DNA of 8,506 nucleotides from the NCBI GenBank assembly GCA_021845835.1, contig JAJZVE010000169.1:1-8506 (forward strand), in the 5' to 3' direction. The notes beneath the pieces are model-generated. The model saw only the letters and a program-made list of their open reading frames with translations. It was not told where the DNA came from and made no database searches. The first letter of the stretch is position 1, and each line of letters opens with the position of its first letter. The DNA comes from Pseudomonadota bacterium (GTDB lineage Bacteria; Pseudomonadota; Alphaproteobacteria; Acetobacterales; Acetobacteraceae). Positions 1-8,506 of this stretch are shown piece by piece. Position numbers and translations under genes: made by a program.

Positions 1-651
1 CCGGATGCGCAGCAGCGCCAGGATCGGCTGCAGCCATCCCGAGCTGCCGTCCTGACCTCGCCCGCCACGGTGGTCGGTGGCGCGGTCGGTGCGACGGCAG
101 AACGGCACCAGCAGCGCGGTGACGCCGACGGTGCCGCAGGCGAGCGCGACCACGGCGAAGCGCCACGATCCCAGATGCAGCAGCGCCGGCACCGACAGGC
201 CCGCCAGCAGCCCGCCCAGCGGCGCGCCCGTCTGCTTGAGCGAGAAGATCAGGTTGGCGTAGCGCGGCGGCGTGGCGGCGCCGAGCACCTGTGAGGTCGC
301 CGGCACCACCGGGCCATAGCCCAGCCCGATCACCAGCGCCCCCGCCGCCAGCACGGCGGGCTCCGGCGCCAGCAGGAGCGTCAGCCCGGCCGCACTGACC
401 ACGACGCTCGCCAGACTGAGCATCATCGGCCCGATCCGGTTCAGGATCGGCAGCCCGAAAACACAGATGCCCAGTGCCGCCAGATACATCAGCCCGGGAT
501 AGTAGCCGATCAGGCCGGCATCCCAGGATCGCGCGGCAGCGATGCTGGGCGCCAGCACCGGCACGCTGAGCGCGACCAGCGAGCTGAGCACCTGCACGAG
601 CAGGGTGAGCGCCAGTACCCAAACCATGCCCCACACGGATGCGCTTCTCAC
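1..651 (-). CDS. MFS transporter, N-terminal half (cut by the window edge)
   Basis: The 217 codons visible encode a hydrophobic protein with about six membrane segments (roughly residues 10-33, 46-67, 75-94, 98-123, 142-155 and 162-179). A polar stretch follows (about 180-205), like the central loop between the two six-helix halves of MFS carriers. The motif SLKQTGAPLGG (137-147) near the fifth segment is typical of MFS uptake carriers. The GTG start (651-649) overlaps the TGA of livF (650-648) as GTGA, which suggests translational coupling and membership in the same operon. A downstream ATG (residue 9) is an alternative start. The C-terminal half lies outside the window and the substrate cannot be told from the sequence. 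It is notable as a second, different type of carrier at the end of an ABC-importer operon. Confidence 0.82.
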   Translation of the reverse strand, partial: MRSASVWGMVWVLALTLLVQVLSSLVALSVPVLAPSIAAARSWDAGLIGYYPGLMYLAALGICVFGLPILNRIGPMMLSLASVVVSAAGLTLLLAPEPAVLAAGALVIGLGYGPVVPATSQVLGAATPPRYANLIFSLKQTGAPLGGLLAGLSVPALLHLGSWRFAVVALACGTVGVTALLVPFCRRTDRATDHRGGRGQDGSSGWLQPILALLRIR

Positions 652-1370
652 GCCGGCTCCTGCCGAATCCCGAGATAGATGTCCTGCACCTGCCGGTCGT
701 GGCGCAAGGCCTCGGCGGTGCCCGCCAGCCGTACCGCGCCGCGTTCGATCACGACGGCCCGGTCCGCCGCCGACAAGGTCGCGCCGATCTGCTGCTCGAC
801 GATCAGGATGCCGGTGCCGCTGCGCGCCCAATGCCGCAGGAAGGCCAGGATCTGCGGCATCAGCGCCTGCGCCAGCCCCAGCGACGGCTCGTCGCACAGC
901 AGCAGCTTCGGGCGGGCGGCGAAGGCCTGCGCCAGCACCACCATCTGCTGCTGCCCACCGCTGAGGTTGCGCGCCGGCTCGCGCAGCTTCTCGCGCAGGA
1001 TCGGGAACATCTCCAGCGCCGCGCCGGCCAGTTCGTCGAAATCCGGCCGCCCGCCGCGCCAGGCCGCGCCGATGCGGATGTTGTCGGCGACGCTGAGATT
1101 GGGGAAGACGCGATGGCCGTCCAGCACCAGGCGCAGGCCGCGACGCGCCATCTCCTCCGGCGGCAGGCCGGCGATGTCCGCCCCATCGAACGTGATCCGT
1201 CCTGCGGTCGGACGGATGAAGCCCGCCACCGTGCGCAGCAGCGTCGATTTGCCGGCCCCGTTGGCGCCCAGCACCAGCACGATCTCGCCGGCGGCGACCG
1301 ACAGGTCGATGCCGTGCAGCACCGGCACGCGCCCGTAGCCGGACCGGAGGCCCTCGACCTGCAGCATCAT
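648..1370 (-). CDS. livF: Branched-chain-type ABC importer ATPase, LivF-like
   Basis: This 240-residue cytoplasmic ATPase should power the importer together with the LivG half of the neighbouring fusion protein. Walker A is GANGAGKS (35-42), the signature is LSGGQ (136-140) and Walker B with the catalytic glutamate is LLLCDE (156-161), followed by the D-loop SLGLA. The usual H-loop histidine is replaced by Gln in IVEQQ, which is normal for LivF. At the Q-loop position, where this family has Gln or Glu (VPxGR), the protein reads VLDGHR, with Asp at 84. Length is normal for LivF. The start ATG (1370-1368) overlaps the TGA of the upstream gene as ATGA. The family carries branched-chain amino acids but also amides, urea and other small solutes, so the symbol denotes the subunit type, not the substrate. 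Confidence 0.93.
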   Translation of the reverse strand: MMLQVEGLRSGYGRVPVLHGIDLSVAAGEIVLVLGANGAGKSTLLRTVAGFIRPTAGRITFDGADIAGLPPEEMARRGLRLVLDGHRVFPNLSVADNIRIGAAWRGGRPDFDELAGAALEMFPILREKLREPARNLSGGQQQMVVLAQAFAARPKLLLCDEPSLGLAQALMPQILAFLRHWARSGTGILIVEQQIGATLSAADRAVVIERGAVRLAGTAEALRHDRQVQDIYLGIRQEPA

Positions 1371-3136
1371 TCCGCACCTGCCTCCACCGGCGCGTCAGCC
1401 GCACCGGTGAACAGGGCGCGCACACGCGGATTCGCCAGGATCTCCTGCGGCAGGCCCTCGGCGACCACCTGGCCGGCATCGAGCACGGTGATGCGGTCGG
1501 CGACCTGCCAGACCAGATGCAGATCATGCTCGATCAGCACGACCGTCTTGCCCCAGCGGTCGCGCAACGCCCGCAGCAGCAGCGCCAGTTCACGCCGCTC
1601 CTCCGACCCGAGGCCGGCGGCCGGCTCGTCGAACATCAGCACGTCCGCACCGGTCGCCAGCACGCGCAGGATTTCGAGCTGCCGGCGCTGGGCATGCGGC
1701 AGCACGTCGGGAAACTGCCCCTGCCAGTGCGCCCGCCGGGGCGCCAGCGTGTCCAGCACGCCGTCGCCCGCGTGGCCACGGCGCTGCCCGACGCGCAGAT
1801 TGTCCCAGATCGACATGTCCTCGAACACGCGGGGCGTCTGGAACGTCCGCCCGACGCCGAGCCGGGCGACGCGCTGCGGCGCGAGGCGGGTGGTATCGAC
1901 GCCCATGATGGCGACACGGCCGCCATCCAGCCGCGTGAAGCCGGAGACGACGTTGAGCAGCGTCGTCTTGCCCGATCCGTTCGGGCCGACCACCGCATGC
2001 ACTTGTCCAGGCGCGACGCTGAGGCTGACATCGTCGAGTGCCAGCATCCGGCCATAGGCCTTGCGCGCCCGCTCGACCACGATGGCGGCACCGCCCCGCG
2101 GCGCCACAGGTGGTACGGCGGGGACGGAGTCGGCCAGCACGTTGCCGACCGCGATCTCGCCCACGCCCTCGCGTTGGCGGTGCCGGCGCAGCGTGCGTTC
2201 CACGCTGCCGACCAGCCCGTCGGGAAACGCCAGCATGATGACGAAGGCCACGATGCCGTAGCCGAGCAACCGGTAACTGGCGAGGCCGGCGAGCAACGCA
2301 TTGGGGACCAGGTAAAGCACCCAGGCACCGATCACGGGACCGAGCAGCCGTCCCGCGCCGCCCACGATCACCGAGAAGAAGAAGTAGATCGAAAGATCGA
2401 CGCGAAAGGCGTAGGGGCTGACGAAGCCGATCACGGCGACATAGAGGCATCCCGCCATCCCGGTCACGAAGGCGGCGATCGTGAAGGCGAGGAAGCGCAG
2501 CCCTCCGGGGCTGAAGCCGAGGCTCATCGCCGCCTCGCCGCTGACCGCGGCGACGCGCATCCGTCGTCCGACGGCGCTGCGCCGGAACCAGGCATGGAAG
2601 ACAAGGCTGGCGATCGCCAGCGCCATGATGAGCAGCGACAGCCGGCTGACGCCGGCAATCACCGGCGCCGCCAGCGCCGGCACCGGCTGCGAAATGCCGT
2701 TGATGCCGTTGGTGTAGTCGCTGAACGCCACCAGCATCTCGGGAAACACCACGGCGGCACTCAGGGTGACGAAGCCCAGATAGTAGCTCTGCACGCGCAG
2801 GGCCGGCAGTGCGAACAGCAGGCCCAGCGCGACCGATGCCGCCACGCCGCACAGCGCGCCGACGGCGTAGCCCTGGCCGAGCAGCCCGGCGACCATGCCG
2901 GTCGTGTAGGCCGCGAGGCCGAACACCGCGCCCTGGCCGAAGGAAACCTGTCCCGCGTCGGACAGCAGCAGATTCTGCATGACCGCGACGGCGACGAACA
3001 GATCGACGATAGCGAAGTTGTAGGTCCAGTAGCTGCTGCCGGTCAGCGTCGGCACGATCAGGCTGACGACGATCAGCGCGATGCCGAGCGGCAATTGCAT
3101 ACTGCGCCGCCGCGGCGTCGCCGCCGTGCCGCCCAT
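1367..3136 (-). CDS. Fused LivM permease / LivG ATPase of a branched-chain-type ABC importer
   Basis: This 589-residue protein joins two subunits. Residues about 15-310 are a LivM-type inner-membrane permease: many hydrophobic helices, the SFGQGAVFGLAAY motif (65-77), and an EAA-like coupling loop at about 187-208. A polar linker (311-350) leads to a LivG-type ATPase (351-580). Its Walker A is GPNGSGKT (384-391), Q-loop Gln is 433, Walker B is VLMFDE (499-504) and H-loop His is 537. The signature reads LPHAQ (479-483). A non-serine second residue is seen in other LivG proteins (E. coli has LAYGD), but replacement of the glycine is unusual. Only about 46 residues separate the Q-loop from the signature, roughly 20 fewer than in typical LivG, so the helical subdomain is short. 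The ATG lies 1 nt after the livH stop (TGAGATG) with no clear Shine-Dalgarno, which suggests coupling. Met13 is an alternative start. Confidence 0.9.
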   Translation of the reverse strand: MGGTAATPRRRSMQLPLGIALIVVSLIVPTLTGSSYWTYNFAIVDLFVAVAVMQNLLLSDAGQVSFGQGAVFGLAAYTTGMVAGLLGQGYAVGALCGVAASVALGLLFALPALRVQSYYLGFVTLSAAVVFPEMLVAFSDYTNGINGISQPVPALAAPVIAGVSRLSLLIMALAIASLVFHAWFRRSAVGRRMRVAAVSGEAAMSLGFSPGGLRFLAFTIAAFVTGMAGCLYVAVIGFVSPYAFRVDLSIYFFFSVIVGGAGRLLGPVIGAWVLYLVPNALLAGLASYRLLGYGIVAFVIMLAFPDGLVGSVERTLRRHRQREGVGEIAVGNVLADSVPAVPPVAPRGGAAIVVERARKAYGRMLALDDVSLSVAPGQVHAVVGPNGSGKTTLLNVVSGFTRLDGGRVAIMGVDTTRLAPQRVARLGVGRTFQTPRVFEDMSIWDNLRVGQRRGHAGDGVLDTLAPRRAHWQGQFPDVLPHAQRRQLEILRVLATGADVLMFDEPAAGLGSEERRELALLLRALRDRWGKTVVLIEHDLHLVWQVADRITVLDAGQVVAEGLPQEILANPRVRALFTGAADAPVEAGAE

Positions 3137-3137
3137 C

Positions 3138-4016
3138 TCAGACCCGCCGCGCCGCGGGCGTTCCGAACAGGCCCTCGGGCCGGAGCATCAGCACCGCCAC
3201 GAGCAGCCCAAGCGTGACGAGGTTCTGGAATTCGCCGCCATAGGTGTATGCGGCATAGACCGAGGCGATGCCGACCAGGGCGCCGCCGGCGAGCGCACCG
3301 GCGTCGTTGCCGAGGCCGCCGACCACCGCAGCGACGAAGCCGTTGGTCGAATAGACCACGCCGCTGTCGTTGGCGATCGCCAGCACCGGCGCCGCGACGA
3401 AGCCGGCCGACCCGACGATCAGACCGCCGATGGCGAACGCCAGCACCTGCAACCGCCGCACCCGCAGGCCGGCCGCGCGCGCCGCATCGAGATCCTGTGC
3501 GATCGCGCTCAGACAGAGGCCGGTGAGCGTGCGGCGATGGAACAGCCGCAGTGCGACATACCAGAACGCCGCCAGCGCGATCGCCAGCAGGTGCGGCGCC
3601 GGCGTGCGCACGCCGAACAGCGTGAGCGGCGGGAACGGGCTCGGCGTGGACAATTCCCGGTCGCCCTGCAGCAGCAGGATCACGGCGCTGATCACCACCG
3701 ACGCGGCGAGCGTGGTGACCAGCCACGAATGCTGCTCGACGGAAGAACGCAGCGGCAACAGCGTCACATAGCCCTGCAGCGCCATCAGTGCCGCCAAAGC
3801 CAGTGCCACGACAGGGAGCATGCCGAGCCAGGGCCACGGGCCGCGATCCGTCGCCATGAAGCCGGCGGCCAGCAGTCCGCCGACGACCAGCATGCCGCCC
3901 TGCGCGAAGTTCAGGATCGCGCTCGATCGGTGGATGACGTTCAGGCTCATCGCCACCAGCGCGCACACCGCGCCCATGCCGAGGCCACGCAGCAGGATGA
4001 TCCCCAGGTCCTCCAC
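3138..4016 (-). CDS. livH: Branched-chain-type ABC importer permease, LivH-like
   Basis: This 292-residue inner-membrane protein is the second permease of the importer. The N-terminal motif NFAQGGM (36-42) is the hallmark of LivH. Hydrophobic helices run through the protein, with an EAA-like cytoplasmic loop at about 161-184 (GLxLxAIAxDxxAAxxxGL) and a C-terminal GGLGNDAGALAGG segment of the family. The GTG start at 4016 is favoured because GGAGGG lies 3 nt upstream, a tight but usable spacing. The out-of-frame ATG two bases earlier opens only a short frame. The gene begins 33 bp after the binding-protein stop and ends 1 nt before the LivM-LivG fusion. Confidence 0.93.
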   Translation of the reverse strand: MEDLGIILLRGLGMGAVCALVAMSLNVIHRSSAILNFAQGGMLVVGGLLAAGFMATDRGPWPWLGMLPVVALALAALMALQGYVTLLPLRSSVEQHSWLVTTLAASVVISAVILLLQGDRELSTPSPFPPLTLFGVRTPAPHLLAIALAAFWYVALRLFHRRTLTGLCLSAIAQDLDAARAAGLRVRRLQVLAFAIGGLIVGSAGFVAAPVLAIANDSGVVYSTNGFVAAVVGGLGNDAGALAGGALVGIASVYAAYTYGGEFQNLVTLGLLVAVLMLRPEGLFGTPAARRV

Positions 4017-4049
4017 ATTCCCTCCGCTATGCCGGATTGCGCGTCGTGT

Positions 4050-5298
4050 TCAGCAGGCCACGCGCTCCTGGATGCCGGCTTCGCCGCGGCGCGCCGGATG
4101 CACCACCGCGAGCGCATCGGGTCCGTACAGGAAGTGGCTCTCCTTGCTCGGCGCGACCGGACCGGCGATGCCGCGGAAACTGGCGCCGTTCCGCTCCACC
4201 CAGGCGGCGACGGTCGCCCCGTCGGTCCTGCCGCCGCTGCCTTCCACCGCCGCCTTGAACAGCATGACGGCATCGTGGAACAGCGCCGCCATCGTCAGCG
4301 ACAGGCGTGCGGCCGGACCGCCATTGAACTGCTTCGCGCGGGCGACGAAATCGAGGTACGGCTGCGGCTGCGCGCCGCCGGCGCAATAGGTGAAGCCGGC
4401 GTAGTTCGACCCGGTCACGTTCTCCAGCGCCGCCGCGCCGCACACCTTCTCCATCGCATCGACGAAGGTGCCGAGCGTCCAGTTTCCCGTCACAGGCGGA
4501 TTCCAGCCGACATCGCCGAGGCTTTTGATGACGTTGCCGGCATCCTCGCCGCTGGATGCGAACAGGAACAGCGTGTCCGGCCTGGCGTGCTTCAGCGCCA
4601 GCAGCTGCGGCGTCATGTCGATGGCGCGGTACTGGTACTCCTGCACCCCGGTCAGCTTGATGCCGGCTGCCTGCATCTCGCGCCGCATGTTCTGGACGAA
4701 ATCCTTGGCCTGCGCGCCGCTGTCGGAAATGATCGCGCCCGACCTGGCGTGCAGCGCCTGCGCGGCATGGGAGGCCATCTTGTTCGCCTGCGCCGCCGCG
4801 CTGACCAGCGTGCTGAAGTAATACGGCGCGACGGCGGGCGTGATGGCGAGCGATCCGGTAGAGCCGAACGAGGCGATGTTGGCGGCGTTCAGCACCGGCG
4901 CCGCCGCAAGCTCGATCTGGCTGATCACCGGGCCGATGACGAAATCCACCTTTTCCTGCTGCACCAGCCGCTTCCTGCTGCACCAGCCGCTTCATCTCGC
5001 CGACGCCGACCGTGGCATCGGTCTGCGTGTCGGCGATGATGCGCGTGATCTTGCGCCCGGCGATGCCGTTGCCCGCATTCAGCGTCGCCAGCGCCAGATC
5101 GACGCCGAACTGGACGGATTCGGACGTGGTGCCGCTCGATCCGCCGGTGTACTCGAGGCACAGGCCGAGCTTGAGCGGCATGTCCGCCGCCCGCGCTCGC
5201 AAGGGCAGCGCCGCCGTACCGGCCAGTGCCGCCGTTGCGGCCAGCAGGCCGCGGCGGTCGAGCGCCGTGGCGGCTGCGTATCTCCGTGAGTCCGTCAT
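4050..5298 (-). pseudogene. Periplasmic substrate-binding protein of the ABC importer, frameshifted by a 19-bp duplication
   Basis: This should be the receptor that captures solute in the periplasm and delivers it to LivH/LivM. Residues 1-109 are intact. A signal peptide carries an Arg-Arg pair (15-16, DRRGLL) and a probable cleavage site at ARA|AD (after 37), which suggests Tat export; the mature domain starts PLKLGLCLEYTGG. After EMKRLVQQE the frame shifts at a tandem duplication. The rest of the domain (VDFVIGPVIS onward, ending IQERVAC) continues in another frame to the TGA at 4052-4050. Removing 19 bp gives exactly 410 codons including the stop, with no other lesion seen. As sequenced, translation would continue out of frame to a stop at 4027 and give about 423 residues, mostly unrelated. 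The ATG at 5298 is chosen for its Shine-Dalgarno and signal peptide. The gene is second in the operon, 46 bp after the hydrolase. It may be a true pseudogene, a switchable allele or an assembly error. Confidence 0.88.
4953..4993. repeat. Perfect 19-bp tandem duplication (frameshifting) in the binding-protein gene
   Basis: On the plus strand the unit TTCCTGCTGCACCAGCCGC occurs at 4953-4971 and again at 4972-4990, followed by TTC, which starts a third partial copy. The periodicity is perfect across 41 bp and breaks at 4952 and 4994. Nineteen is not a multiple of three, so the duplication shifts the reading frame. Deleting either copy gives the continuous protein segment EMKRLVQQEKVDFVIGPVIS, a natural binding-protein sequence. 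No other repeats flank it and there is no transposon or IS sequence. Replication slippage is the likely origin (inference). Confidence 0.97.
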
Positions 5299-5344: not shown

Positions 5345-6196
5345 TCATGCGGCCGGCGCGGATTGTGCGGCGCCGGCCTGGGCGACGAAGGCGTCTGCGG
5401 CGCCGCGGCAGGTGGTGAACCAGACATCGGGACAACGCTGCATGTGCTCGATGATCCGGCGCAGCAGCAGCAGGCGCGACGGACGCCCGGTCACCTGCGG
5501 ATGCATGGTCAGGTTGAACAGTCCGCCGGCGGCGCGGATGGCGTCGAACTCGTCGCGCCAGATGGCGAAGATGTGGTCATTGGTCATGATGGCGCGCGGC
5601 GCCTTGATCGAGAACAGCGCATAGACGGCATCGTCCAGCGACCATGACCACGGCAGCTCCACCAGCGCGCGCGGATTGCCGGCGACCGCGTGGAAATACG
5701 GGTTGATCGCGTCCAGCATCGACGAGTCATAGAGGAAGCCGCGTTCGGCGAGCAGGCGGAACAGGTTGGCGCTGGTCTCGCCGGCGGCGGAGCGGAAGCC
5801 GGCGGGACGGATACCGGCGACGCGGTGCAGCGCCTCCAGGCCACGGTCCACCTCCTCCAGCTCGCCGGCGGGATCGGTCGGGTCGACCCAGCGATGCGAG
5901 TAGCTGTGGTGGCCGATCTCGTGCCCGTCCGCGAGGATCGCCTCCACCCGCGTGGGATGATGCTCGGCCGTCCAGCCGGGCACGAAGAACGTGGCGGGCA
6001 GGCGGCCCATGTCGCGCAGCACCTGCAGGATGCTCGGCACGCCCACCTTCGCACCGTACAACCCCTGCGACAGCGTGCCCGGCCGGTCGATATTGCTGGG
6101 ATCGCGGCCGAGCCACAGGGTTTCCGCATCGAAGTCGAAAGTCAGCAGCACGGCGCAGCGCGCGCCGTTGGGCCAGGCGACGGTCGTGTCGATCAC
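5345..6196 (-). CDS. Polysaccharide-deacetylase-fold (NodB/PuuE-like) hydrolase
   Basis: This 283-residue protein has no signal peptide and is probably a cytoplasmic metal-dependent C-N hydrolase of carbohydrate esterase family 4. Motif 1 is TFDFDAE (19-25), motif 2 is GHEIGHHSYSH (91-101), motif 3 is GFRSAAGE (132-139), and YDSSM (155-159), LPWSW (180-184) and MHPQ (230-233) follow. By analogy with the PuuE/HpPgdA subgroup, D23, H97 and H101 should hold the metal and D21 act as base. This subgroup includes allantoinase PuuE and a cyclic imide hydrolase as well as peptidoglycan-deacetylase-like proteins, so a small amide, imide or ureide is a more likely substrate here than a polysaccharide (inference). 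The GTG start at 6196 is supported by GGGAGGGG 4 nt upstream. It is the first gene of the transporter operon, so its substrate is probably the imported solute or a derivative. Confidence 0.88.
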   Translation of the reverse strand: MIDTTVAWPNGARCAVLLTFDFDAETLWLGRDPSNIDRPGTLSQGLYGAKVGVPSILQVLRDMGRLPATFFVPGWTAEHHPTRVEAILADGHEIGHHSYSHRWVDPTDPAGELEEVDRGLEALHRVAGIRPAGFRSAAGETSANLFRLLAERGFLYDSSMLDAINPYFHAVAGNPRALVELPWSWSLDDAVYALFSIKAPRAIMTNDHIFAIWRDEFDAIRAAGGLFNLTMHPQVTGRPSRLLLLRRIIEHMQRCPDVWFTTCRGAADAFVAQAGAAQSAPAA

Positions 6197-6245
6197 GTTT
6201 CCCCTCCCGCGATGTGCCTGCTACGTGACCGTCGCCGGCAGCCCC

Positions 6246-6262
6246 GCCATGCCGGGCATGGC
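6246..6262. promoter_or_regulatory. Perfect 8-bp-arm palindrome in the leader of the hydrolase operon
   Basis: GCCATGCC-G-GGCATGGC is a perfect inverted repeat with a one-base centre, ending 49 bp before the GTG start of the hydrolase. If transcription begins near 6358 it lies inside the 5' leader. It could be a protein-binding site; as RNA the tight centre would cost a few base pairs in the loop. There is no T-run after it, so it is not an ordinary terminator. Its role is unknown. Confidence 0.45.
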
Positions 6263-6309
6263 ATCGGCATCGAATGGCTGACCAGCGACGTTGGTAGACC
6301 GCATTTGGC

Positions 6310-6339
6310 TTGATCCACGCAAGCGATCTGGCGTATCGC
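6310..6339 (+). promoter_or_regulatory. Possible promoter of the IclR gene
   Basis: TTGATC (6310-6315) and TATCGC (6334-6339) are spaced by 18 bp on the plus strand. The -10 match is weak (three of six). The -10 lies within the palindromic site 6332-6350, which would fit autorepression by the encoded regulator. No better plus-strand candidate was found between 6197 and 6430. Confidence 0.25.
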
Positions 6340-6350
6340 ACTTCAGTACG
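6332..6350. promoter_or_regulatory. Candidate operator B for the IclR regulator
   Basis: The plus strand reads CGTATCGCACTTCAGTACG. It is an imperfect palindrome, with outer arms GGCGTA (6330-6335) and TACGCC (6347-6352) perfectly complementary. Aligned to the minus-strand reading of site A (8005-8023) it matches 14 of 19 positions, including all of the first nine. It lies between the divergent hydrolase operon and the IclR gene, 14 bp downstream of the minus-strand -10 element. In both places GCGATC also occurs a few bases to the left of the site. Confidence 0.6.
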
Positions 6351-6364
6351 CCCGGATTGCATTG

Positions 6365-6394
6365 AGCGTAAGCCCATGCCGTCCGCGCCGTCAA
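6365..6394 (-). promoter_or_regulatory. Candidate sigma-70-type promoter of the hydrolase/transporter operon
   Basis: On the minus strand TTGACG (6394-6389) and TACGCT (6370-6365) are spaced by 18 bp. The -35 matches the consensus at five of six bases; the -10 at three. The expected start is near 6358, giving a leader of about 160 nt. The element closely parallels the one before the SDR gene, with the same GCATTTGACG decamer, the same spacer and the palindromic site just downstream, which raises confidence above that of a lone weak match. Confidence 0.5.
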
Positions 6395-6416
6395 ATGCCT
6401 TCGCCACGCGCGGCGC

Positions 6417-6423
6417 AGAAGGA
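6417..6423 (+). promoter_or_regulatory. Shine-Dalgarno fixing the IclR start
   Basis: AGAAGGA ends 7 nt before the ATG at 6431. The frame is open upstream to a TTG at 6362, but that start would overlap the minus-strand promoter element and add 23 non-conserved residues, so 6431 is preferred. Confidence 0.65.
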
Positions 6424-6430
6424 AAACGCA

Positions 6431-7222
6431 ATGTCCCCGCGACCGCGCTCCAGCCCGCCCCCCCAGGCCGCGAAGCCGGATCGGCTGCATGTGCAGTCGG
6501 TCGCGCGGGCGTTCCGCCTGCTGGAAGCCTTCGCCGGGCAGCCGCGCCCGCTGTCGCTGGCGCAGCTCGCGGCGGCGGCGGCAATGGACAAGAGCGCGGC
6601 GCAGCGGCTGTCGCACACGCTGCTGCAGCTCGGCTACCTGGAGCAGGCCGAGCGCGGCCTGCGGCCCGGCCGCAGACTGCTGGAGCGTTCGGCCGACTAT
6701 CTGCGCTGGAACCCGCTGGTCGGCCAGGCCCTGCCGGTGCTGGTGGATCTCGGACGCGAGACGCAGGAGGCGGTCGATCTCAGCCTGTTCGACGATCTGA
6801 CCATGCTCTACGTGCTGCGCCTGCAGAGCCGCCGCACGGCGTATCACGCGCAGCTGGTCGGCCGGCGGGTGCCGACCTTCTGTACCTCCACCGGCCACGC
6901 GGTGCTCGCCCGGCTGCCGGAGGCGCGCGCCCGCGACATCATCGCCCGTTCCGACCGCCGCAGGCTGACGCCGAAGACCGTCGTCGATCCCAGAACAATC
7001 CTTGCCGCGCTGGCCGAGGTCCGGCAGGCGCGCTATTCGCTCGCGGTCGAGCAGTTCAGGCTCGGAGAAATCGCCATCGCCGCCGCCGTGACCGATGCCG
7101 CGGCCGCCCCGGTCGGCGCCGTGCGGATCGCCGGGTCGCTGAGCGACTGGGGCGCTGAGGACTTCGCCCGGCGCTTCGCGCCGCGCGTCATCGAGGCGGC
7201 GGATGCGATCAGCGGCACGTAG
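6431..7222 (+). CDS. IclR-family transcriptional regulator
   Basis: This 263-residue DNA-binding regulator has a winged helix-turn-helix at about 19-80: HVQSVARAFRLLEAF, then LSLAQLAAAAAMDKSAAQRLSHTLLQLGYL, with the recognition helix near 53-65. An IclR effector domain follows (about 85-258) with the family segments CTSTGHAVLARL in the middle and GEIAIAAAVTDAAAAPVGAVRIAG near the end. Length is normal for the family. Members bind small catabolic intermediates and usually repress, sometimes activate, neighbouring pathway genes. It is divergent from the hydrolase/transporter operon and convergent with the SDR gene, and both of those units carry a similar palindromic site just downstream of a promoter-like element. 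Repression of both, relieved by a pathway intermediate, is the simplest inference. The N-terminal 18 residues are proline- and basic-rich and probably disordered. Confidence 0.92.
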   Translation: MSPRPRSSPPPQAAKPDRLHVQSVARAFRLLEAFAGQPRPLSLAQLAAAAAMDKSAAQRLSHTLLQLGYLEQAERGLRPGRRLLERSADYLRWNPLVGQALPVLVDLGRETQEAVDLSLFDDLTMLYVLRLQSRRTAYHAQLVGRRVPTFCTSTGHAVLARLPEARARDIIARSDRRRLTPKTVVDPRTILAALAEVRQARYSLAVEQFRLGEIAIAAAVTDAAAAPVGAVRIAGSLSDWGAEDFARRFAPRVIEAADAISGT

Positions 7223-7225
7223 CAC

Positions 7226-7978
7226 TCAATGGAAGGTGCGTCCGCCATCGACGGCCAGCGCCGTGCCGGTGACATAGGCCGACTCCGCGCCGGTCAGGAA
7301 CAGCGCCGCGGCGGCGATGTCCGCCGGCTGGCCGATGCGCTTGATGACGTAACGGTCCAGGATGCGCGCCAACTCCGCCGCCGGGTCCGCCATGCCCTCA
7401 TACGAGGTGCGGAACAGCGGCGTCTCGATGATGCCGGGACAGATGGCGTTGACGCGCACGTTGTCGGCCGCGAGATCCATCGCCAGCGCCTTGCTGAACA
7501 TCACCAGCGCCGCCTTGGAACTGCAATACGCGGTGCGGTGCTCCAGCGGACGCAGGCCGGCGCCGGAACTGATATTGACGATGGTGCCGCCGCCCGCCTG
7601 CCGCAGCAGCGGCAGCGCGGCGTGGCAGACGTGCATCGGCCCGTTCAGGTTCACGTCCAGGATGAGCTGCCATTCCGCCGCGGTCATGTCGGCAAACGGC
7701 CGCAGCAGATCGATGCCGGCGCAATTCACCACGCCGTCGAGGCCGCCGATCTCCTGCGCCAGCTTCGGCACCGCCGCAGCAACTGCAGCCGCCTGCGACA
7801 CGTCGAGCGCGGCGACGGCGCAACCGGGCCCGAACGAGCTCTGCACCGCCCGCAATCCGTCCGCGTTGCGGTCGAGTAGGCCCAGACGTGCGCCTTCGGT
7901 CGCGAACAACCGCGCCGTCGCCGCCCCAATGCCCGATGCCGCCCCCGTGACCAGAATCCGCCGACCGCTCAGCCGCAT
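7226..7978 (-). CDS. Short-chain dehydrogenase/reductase (SDR), NAD-type
   Basis: This 250-residue classical SDR is a cytoplasmic oxidoreductase for an alcohol/ketone pair. It has the nucleotide motif TGAASGIG (11-18), an acidic residue after the second strand (D36, favouring NAD(H) over NADP(H)), NCAG (85-88), the catalytic tetrad N110, S138, Y151 and K155, the PG motif in NAICPGIIETPLF, and the usual C-terminal VTGTALAVDGG. The start at 7978 is supported by GGAGGTG 7 nt upstream; the frame is open to 8140, but that extension is arginine-rich and would swallow the promoter and operator. It converges on the IclR gene with a 3-bp gap and lies downstream of an aldehyde dehydrogenase in the same direction. 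Together with that enzyme it could oxidise an alcohol group of the imported compound (inference); the substrate is unknown. Confidence 0.93.
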   Translation of the reverse strand: MRLSGRRILVTGAASGIGAATARLFATEGARLGLLDRNADGLRAVQSSFGPGCAVAALDVSQAAAVAAAVPKLAQEIGGLDGVVNCAGIDLLRPFADMTAAEWQLILDVNLNGPMHVCHAALPLLRQAGGGTIVNISSGAGLRPLEHRTAYCSSKAALVMFSKALAMDLAADNVRVNAICPGIIETPLFRTSYEGMADPAAELARILDRYVIKRIGQPADIAAAALFLTGAESAYVTGTALAVDGGRTFH

Positions 7979-7985
7979 GCGCCAG

Positions 7986-7992
7986 CACCTCC
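7986..7992 (-). promoter_or_regulatory. Shine-Dalgarno fixing the SDR start
   Basis: GGAGGTG on the minus strand ends 7 nt before the ATG at 7978. It places the start at MRLSGRRILVTG, directly at the first strand of the Rossmann fold, and argues against the longer in-frame start at 8140. Confidence 0.75.
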
Positions 7993-8004
7993 GCGATCGC
8001 GTGC

Positions 8005-8023
8005 CGTATCGCTTTGCGATACG
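8005..8023. promoter_or_regulatory. Candidate operator A for the IclR regulator (perfect palindrome)
   Basis: CGTATCGC-TTT-GCGATACG has perfect 8-bp arms and a 3-bp centre. It lies 26 bp before the SDR start codon and 17 bp downstream of the -10 element at 8041-8046, a position where a bound protein would block transcription. A related site is at 6332-6350. The absence of a T-run and the position ahead of a gene argue against a terminator. The self-complementary GCGATCGC (7993-8000) lies between it and the ribosome-binding site. Confidence 0.65.
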
Positions 8024-8040
8024 ATCGTGGTGTCGATGCG

Positions 8041-8070
8041 ACTGTAATCTGCGCGACAAAGGCGCGTCAA
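8041..8070 (-). promoter_or_regulatory. Candidate sigma-70-type promoter of the SDR gene
   Basis: On the minus strand TTGACG (8070-8065) and TACAGT (8046-8041) are spaced by 18 bp, with five and four matches to the consensus hexamers. The predicted start is near 8034, so the palindrome 8005-8023 would fall just inside the transcript. The layout parallels the promoter at 6365-6394. Confidence 0.55.
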
Positions 8071-8087
8071 ATGCGGTCGAAAGCCGG

Positions 8088-8105
8088 ACGCAGCACTGCG
8101 TGCTG
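8088..8105. repeat. Two overlapping short inverted repeats upstream of the SDR promoter
   Basis: ACGCAG-CA-CTGCGT (8088-8101) and CAGCAC-TGC-GTGCTG (8091-8105) share bases, so only one hairpin can form at a time. They lie about 130 bp past the aldehyde dehydrogenase stop and just before the SDR -35 element. They may help end the upstream transcript or bind a protein; there is no T-run and chance in GC-rich DNA is possible. Confidence 0.3.
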
Positions 8106-8184
8106 ATGCTGGCGTGCGGTCGCGAGCTGCCCGCGGACATCGACGGGCACCGCTGGTGCGGCCGCCACGTCGAGTGCGATGTGA

Positions 8185-8208
8185 CCGGTGTCGGTGCCGG
8201 TGCCGGTG
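8185..8208. repeat. Four tandem hexamers YCGGTG
   Basis: CCGGTG, TCGGTG, CCGGTG and CCGGTG follow each other in the non-coding gap after the aldehyde dehydrogenase stop. The tract is short and probably a simple-sequence remnant. No convincing gene is seen between 7979 and 8233. Confidence 0.5.
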
Positions 8209-8233
8209 CTGCCGCTGGAGCTGCATTGCGCCG

Positions 8234-8506
8234 TCATACGCGGACGGAGAACGGATCCCTCTCGTCCTCCGAAAAGTCGATCATGACGTTTTTCGTCGTC
8301 ATGAACTCGCGCAATCCTTCCTCGCCCCGTTCGCGGCCGAAGCCGCTCTGCTTGACGCCGCCGAACGGGGTCTGGGCGGCGGAGGCGCGATAGGTGTTGA
8401 CCCAGACCATGCCCGACCGCATTGCCCGGACCATGCGGTGCACCCGGTTGACGTCCTGCGTCCAGATCCCTGACGCGAGGCCGAACTGCGTGCCATTGGC
8501 GATCGA
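8234..8506 (-). CDS. Aldehyde dehydrogenase, C-terminal 90 residues (cut by the window edge)
   Basis: The fragment starts SIANGTQFGLASGIWTQD and continues through SGMVWVNTYR and TPFGGVKQSGFGRERG to a TGA at 8236-8234. These are the conserved C-terminal blocks of NAD(P)-dependent aldehyde dehydrogenases: the NGTxFGLASGIWT strand, the WVN segment, and the PFGGxKxSGxGRExG loop that closes the active site and contributes to oligomer contacts. The catalytic cysteine and the cofactor domain lie outside the window. The gene is in the same direction as the SDR, 255 bp upstream of it, and the SDR has its own promoter-like element, so the two may be separate transcripts within one pathway. Substrate is not determinable; the closing GFGRERG type is common in betaine-aldehyde and similar dehydrogenases. 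Confidence 0.93.
   Translation of the reverse strand, partial: SIANGTQFGLASGIWTQDVNRVHRMVRAMRSGMVWVNTYRASAAQTPFGGVKQSGFGRERGEEGLREFMTTKNVMIDFSEDERDPFSVRV

Follow-up and report, generated by a model that had tools for sequence, protein, structure and literature searches.

Conserved palindromic sites directly after two promoters are probable operators of an IclR-family regulator

We analyzed an 8,506-nt stretch of DNA from a bacterium of the Acetobacteraceae (contig JAJZVE010000169.1, assembly GCA_021845835.1), referred to here as the window, in which a gene for an IclR-family regulator is flanked by two promoter-operator modules of the same design. In relatives, as in the window, the palindromic site has a fixed place after the promoter and is found beside IclR genes and their target operons. 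Since other bacteria have the same design next to related regulators, the module very probably is the binding site of the adjacent regulator. We are confident, on the strength of these sequence comparisons, that the IclR protein encoded in the window would use both sites as its operators and act on them by repression.

The regulator gene (6431 to 7222, plus strand, 263 aa), whose product we presume binds both sites, sits between a hydrolase gene and an SDR gene, both on the minus strand. The hydrolase (5345 to 6196), the first gene behind site 1, has a polysaccharide deacetylase fold and is allantoinase PuuE-like. PuuE is its best match, with a score under the cut-off, and its best solved-structure match is 3rxz. 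Downstream of it on the minus strand lie genes for a branched-chain-amino-acid-type (Liv) ABC transporter (648 to 4964), which would presumably be transcribed jointly with the deacetylase gene. The Liv substrate-binding gene is frameshifted, and a perfect 19-bp unit in 2.2 copies (4953 to 4993) stands where its frame breaks, reflecting either a recent slip or an assembly error. Site 2 lies in front of the SDR oxidoreductase gene (7226 to 7978). The window also holds the end of an aldehyde dehydrogenase gene on the minus strand.

Both modules read along the minus strand. In the first, the −35 element TTGACG (6389 to 6394), contained within GCATTTGACG at 6389 to 6398, is followed after an 18-nt spacer by the −10 element TACGCT (6365 to 6370) and after a further 14 nt by operator site 1 (6332 to 6350), with the two boxes CGTACTG-N5-CGATACG; a third box, CAATCCG (6353 to 6359), precedes them. 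In the second, TTGACG (8065 to 8070, within GCATTTGACG at 8065 to 8074), an 18-nt spacer, TACAGT (8041 to 8046), and a 17-nt gap lead to operator site 2 (8005 to 8023), CGTATCG-N5-CGATACG, located 26 nt 5′ of the SDR ATG, with CACCACG (8026 to 8032) as a weak third box. Assuming that transcription begins about 7 nt past the −10 element, the predicted start points are near 6358 and 8034, and in the transcripts expected from them site 1 would occupy approximately +9 to +27 (deacetylase) and site 2 approximately +12 to +30 (SDR). The deacetylase mRNA would then have a leader of about 160 nt (6197 to 6358).

The two sites are not of equal quality. Site 1 has a good third box (6 of 7 positions, adding 5.4 bits to a 21.0-bit core) and an imperfect, weaker palindrome; site 2 is a perfect palindrome with 8-bp arms and has a third box that matches at 5 of 7 positions and contributes only 0.5 bit. 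A preliminary description of this DNA had proposed two minus-strand modules, each consisting of TTGACG, 18 nt, TACnnT, 14 or 17 nt, and a 19-bp site, with 14 of 19 positions identical between the sites and perfect 8-bp arms in the second, and all of this proved correct; the start points that it gave are also those predicted here. It also listed CGTATCGCA as shared. Both sites do contain this sequence, but in opposite orientations, site 1 having it on the plus strand and site 2 on the minus strand; the run shared minus to minus is GCGATACG.

The same description had called the arrangement unlikely by chance, and we agree. At up to three mismatches, CGTATCGCNNNGCGATACG has exactly two matches in the window, at 6332 to 6350 (three mismatches) and 8005 to 8023 (none), and at least two matches arose in just 1 of 200 dinucleotide-preserving shuffles. 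The two copies of GCATTTGACG are both on the minus strand, with none on the plus strand, against an expectation of 0.013 per strand. A simple sigma-70 scan of 6150 to 8250 returned the SDR promoter as its sole match (0.1 expected), with the site 1 promoter under threshold. A search of the two intergenic regions found no repeats of 10 nt or more in 6200 to 6430, and in 7979 to 8233 it found three direct and three inverted pairs, none at the operator.

We then looked for the sites beside relatives of the regulator. These came from three sources: 29 loci on genome contigs, two annotated plasmids, and a set of 397 genomes belonging to one family, of which 23 had an E 1e-60 match. The 60 loci collected (L001 to L060) gave 51 nonredundant ones after duplicates L033, L037, L038, L046, L052, L053, and L059 were dropped and L027 and L028, which failed the E-value cut, were left out. 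These 51 relatives are 35 to 60% identical to the window regulator; its closest relatives, P0001 and P0002 (85 to 87% identity), fall outside this set. Allowing up to two mismatches to the relaxed consensus CGTATYG-N5-CRATACG, a site was present upstream of the IclR gene in 36 of 51 loci and either upstream or downstream in 37, leaving 14 with no site in either place at that threshold. The palindrome of the preliminary description, sought in the 460 nt around the IclR start, was found with up to four mismatches in 36 of 51 relatives versus 38 of 823 control windows and with up to three in 24 of 51 versus 7 of 823, the control windows coming from elsewhere in the same loci and perhaps including genuine additional operators. 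Conservation at orthologous loci had been set as a test of the proposal, which thus withstood it.

At E 1e-10, the 51 loci included a deacetylase match in 26, an SDR match in 30, and a Liv match in 14, all of which are lower bounds because 23 of the loci are under 5 kb. The Variovorax locus (L012) has a weaker site and no TTGAC. L041, L048, and L058, a subclade of the relatives, have no upstream site and carry the variant GGTAGCGC-N3-GCGATATT 57 to 59 nt downstream of the IclR gene. P0003, a 69%-identical relative, had no match at E 1e-85 when searched against 395 genomes of the order, a result that shows little, since at most six candidates per genome were scored and the set included no positive control.

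The promoter geometry of the window is also that of the relatives, whose sites had been picked on the palindrome only. TTGAC stood 43 to 49 nt before the site on the side of the divergent target operon in 32 of the 36 upstream sites and on the other side in none, versus a mean of 1.9 and a maximum of 8 under mononucleotide shuffling. The four sites without TTGAC at the expected place were those of L012, L014, L017, and L060. Among the 32, the best-fitting spacer was 18 nt in 26 and 17 nt in 6, the −10 element began with TA in 28, and the gap from the −10 element to the site was 13 to 17 nt in 31; the −10 element and spacer were taken as the best fit over spacers of 16 to 19, which biases toward TA. 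Another seven sites, each preceding a Liv operon located downstream of the IclR gene, are distinct from these, although six of their genomes also supplied an upstream site. They have TTGAC at −41 to −47 and a −10 element starting with TA in 7 of 7, a spacer of 18 in 6 of 7, and a gap of 11 to 17. The module design is common to diverged relatives rather than special to the window.

Alignment of the 36 upstream sites, which omits the 15 loci with more than two relaxed mismatches upstream, revealed a conserved stretch at −9 to −2 (C 27, A 23 [G 10], A 30, T 30, any, C 23, G 24, A 21). Lying between the −10 element and the palindrome, this stretch has the form of an inverted half-site, so that the operator would be CRATNCGAN-CGTATYG-N5-CRATACG. 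A match at five or more of the seven third-box positions was seen for 30 of 36 upstream sites and 6 of 7 Liv sites, as against 1 of 36 for the mirror side, the third-box consensus having been built from the same 36 upstream sites on which it was counted. The recognition sequence offered by the preliminary description therefore needs modification: the site and its geometry do recur beside IclR relatives, but the consensus is looser and includes a promoter-proximal third box. By eye, we also spotted TTGATC-N18-TATCGC on the plus strand at 6310 to 6339, overlapping site 1. It could be a promoter for the IclR gene; the 36-site column counts showed no conserved column on that flank of the site to back it.

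A weight matrix built from 43 relatives' sites, with the window excluded, ranked 8005 to 8032 first (30.3 bits) and 6332 to 6359 second (26.4 bits) in the window, each read on the minus strand. On the opposite strand these two places scored 10.9 and 13.2 bits, the next independent place scored 3.5 bits, and the best score over 500 simulated windows was 24.5 bits.

The site is found in front of separate target operons as well, including Liv, deacetylase, SDR, and amidase genes. Apart from the genes divergent to IclR, individual cases are amidases (L125 and L132), a Liv-type binding protein (L125), deacetylases (L126, by BLAST only, and L128), M81 metallopeptidases (L129 and L130), an FMN oxidoreductase (L131), a penicillin amidase (L133), and a luciferase-like monooxygenase (L009). 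The L128 deacetylase site, at position 84,741 of the 244-kb contig C63 of genome G111, has TTGACA, a spacer of the 18-nt class, and three boxes; the fetched 6.1 kb held no IclR gene, and the IclR match of this genome is on contig C55. At L126, where an SDR gene is also present, the deacetylase gene carries the module, with no IclR gene within 7 kb. Among 11 regions fetched around further sites, TTGA stood at the expected place of the best site in 7 and was missing there in L127, L133, L134, and L135. Hydrolysis of amide-like bonds, together with uptake, may be the common theme of these targets, and the associated hydrolases, alongside the Liv transporters, are probably of the amide, imide, or ureide type.

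These observations suggest how the modules might work. Each three-box site would immediately follow the −10 element of a promoter of the sigma-70 type, at approximately +1 to +30. In the unliganded state, a dimer or tetramer of the regulator would occupy the boxes and block initiation, promoter escape, or early elongation by RNA polymerase at the deacetylase-Liv operon and the SDR gene, the roadblock of the preliminary description being one of several options. Release would follow when a compound of the catabolic pathway, maybe a small acid derived from an amide or imide, acts as ligand. Repression suits an operator that covers the start region at a constant distance from a promoter close to consensus. 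It is conceivable, although on balance we doubt it, that a dimer has two alternative placements, on the start-proximal box or on the palindrome, so that the regulator could obstruct either initiation or elongation and change from one to the other. The two window promoters, of which one combines a good third box with an imperfect palindrome and the other a weak third box with a perfect one, would in that case respond at different ligand levels.

PcaU and PobR are activators that act from further upstream, and the window regulator might similarly bind its sites and activate, or both activate and repress, acting from downstream or via a loop. We consider this improbable. According to the comparative survey by Suvorova and Gelfand (2021, PMC8222616), the IclR family includes activators, repressors, and dual regulators, and PcaU and PobR are among the members reported to have three-box sites. 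These two, with PcaR, also define the nearest NCBIfam subfamily of our regulator, though the match is under the cut-off. However, in both window promoters, as in 32 of 36 upstream and 7 of 7 Liv cases, the site follows the −10 element, a position suited to repression, and since the −35 elements are near-consensus TTGAC, an activator seems unneeded.

Alternatively, the palindrome might be bound by some other regulator, with the IclR gene merely one of its targets, and the site does occur in genomes lacking a close IclR relative. An exact relaxed site was present in 10 of the 23 family genomes with the gene (absent in 13) versus 27 of the 374 without an E 1e-60 match (Fisher p 7e-6, treating genomes as independent, which they are not), and in two of the ten, G243 and G363, the match was sited away from the IclR gene. 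Moreover, of 23 loci fetched from genomes without the gene, 22 had no adjoining IclR gene, and one, L073, had a relative at 40% identity. Most of the 27 sites may nonetheless be chance matches, since the reversed pattern, counted by eye, occurred in 10 of 397 genomes. The short palindrome alone thus has background, and specificity appears to be carried by the three-box pattern and the promoter context.

Searches with those longer patterns led mostly back to IclR genes. With up to three mismatches, the three-box pattern gave 69 strand hits versus 5 for the reversed pattern (totals tallied by eye, some of the 69 being a single place read on both strands) and matched 33 of 38 genomes, all selected for having the regulator or a relative. 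In 30 loci, one apiece from 30 of the 33 matched genomes, an IclR gene lay within the 3-kb locus in 26 and was absent in L092, L094, L095, and L102. Across 385 genomes of the class, TTGAC-N36-44-site matched in four, three of them adjoining an IclR gene: the known G001 and two near-identical modules whose regulators are 36 to 37% identical to that of the window. Set beside these 26 of 30 loci and 3 of 4 class-wide modules, and a half-site that fits the IclR group 1 pattern at all but one position as that pattern is given in the part of PMC8222616 used here, binding by another regulator is very unlikely. In L122 and L123, CGTATTG-N5-CAATACG follows a TATAAT-like element beside IclR genes only 36 to 37% identical, which hints at a wider family of such promoter-site modules.

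Chance similarity or recent local duplication of one promoter, to which the sharing of GCATTTGACG by both modules and by none of the 39 relatives' promoters compared might point, has almost nothing left to recommend it given the same design at 32 of 36 diverged relatives' sites, the single shuffle in 200 noted above, and the differing spacer sequences of the two window modules.

The regulator belongs to the IclR family by Pfam (HTH_IclR, 58.5 bits with a cut-off of 22; IclR_C, 98.6 bits with a cut-off of 24). Its best NCBIfam match, PcaR/PcaU/PobR (TIGR02431), scores 161.1 bits versus a cut-off of 284.75, which places it outside that subfamily, and the window targets differ, not being beta-ketoadipate genes. 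By our reading of Table 5 of PMC8222616, K54, S55, Q58, and R59 of the window regulator correspond to R47, S48, Q51, and R52 of TtgV. The site was present in 34 of 40 relatives with K and in 3 of 11 with R at the position of K54. We considered a K54R change in the recognition helix as the cause of the motif-less relatives and rejected it, since L035, L036, and L054 carry R and the site.

Among the open PMC papers listed by our searches, we found no report of this IclR regulon, although the operator group may already be among the 181 groups of PMC8222616, only part of which we draw on. That part gives the group 1 motif as GKTYCRY-W3/4-RYGRAMC, with four subgroups. By eye, site 2 fits this consensus except for A instead of T at position 3 of each half. 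It resembles the GTT-11-AAC subgroup in its 17-bp core and 3-nt center (GTATCGC-N3-GCGATAC versus GTTYCRY-W3-RYGRAAC), but the A at the third position (GTA-11-TAC) puts it outside the four named subgroups, and the window operator is perhaps a sub-variant of a known IclR operator type. The same source describes three-box sites in 32 orthologous groups, including PcaU, PobR, and HmgR. As in those sites, half-sites in the window alternate in direction, the inner pair is arranged as in group 1, and the outer box, weak at site 2, is inverted across a short spacer next to the pair, so the window sites appear to be three-box IclR operators of this kind; they differ in that the boxes come after the −10 element. 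For an IclR clade found in several alphaproteobacterial genera, our results give a recognition sequence and a promoter arrangement that can be tested, and the three-box layout offers a natural test case for the two dimerization modes that have been proposed for IclR proteins in PMC8222616.
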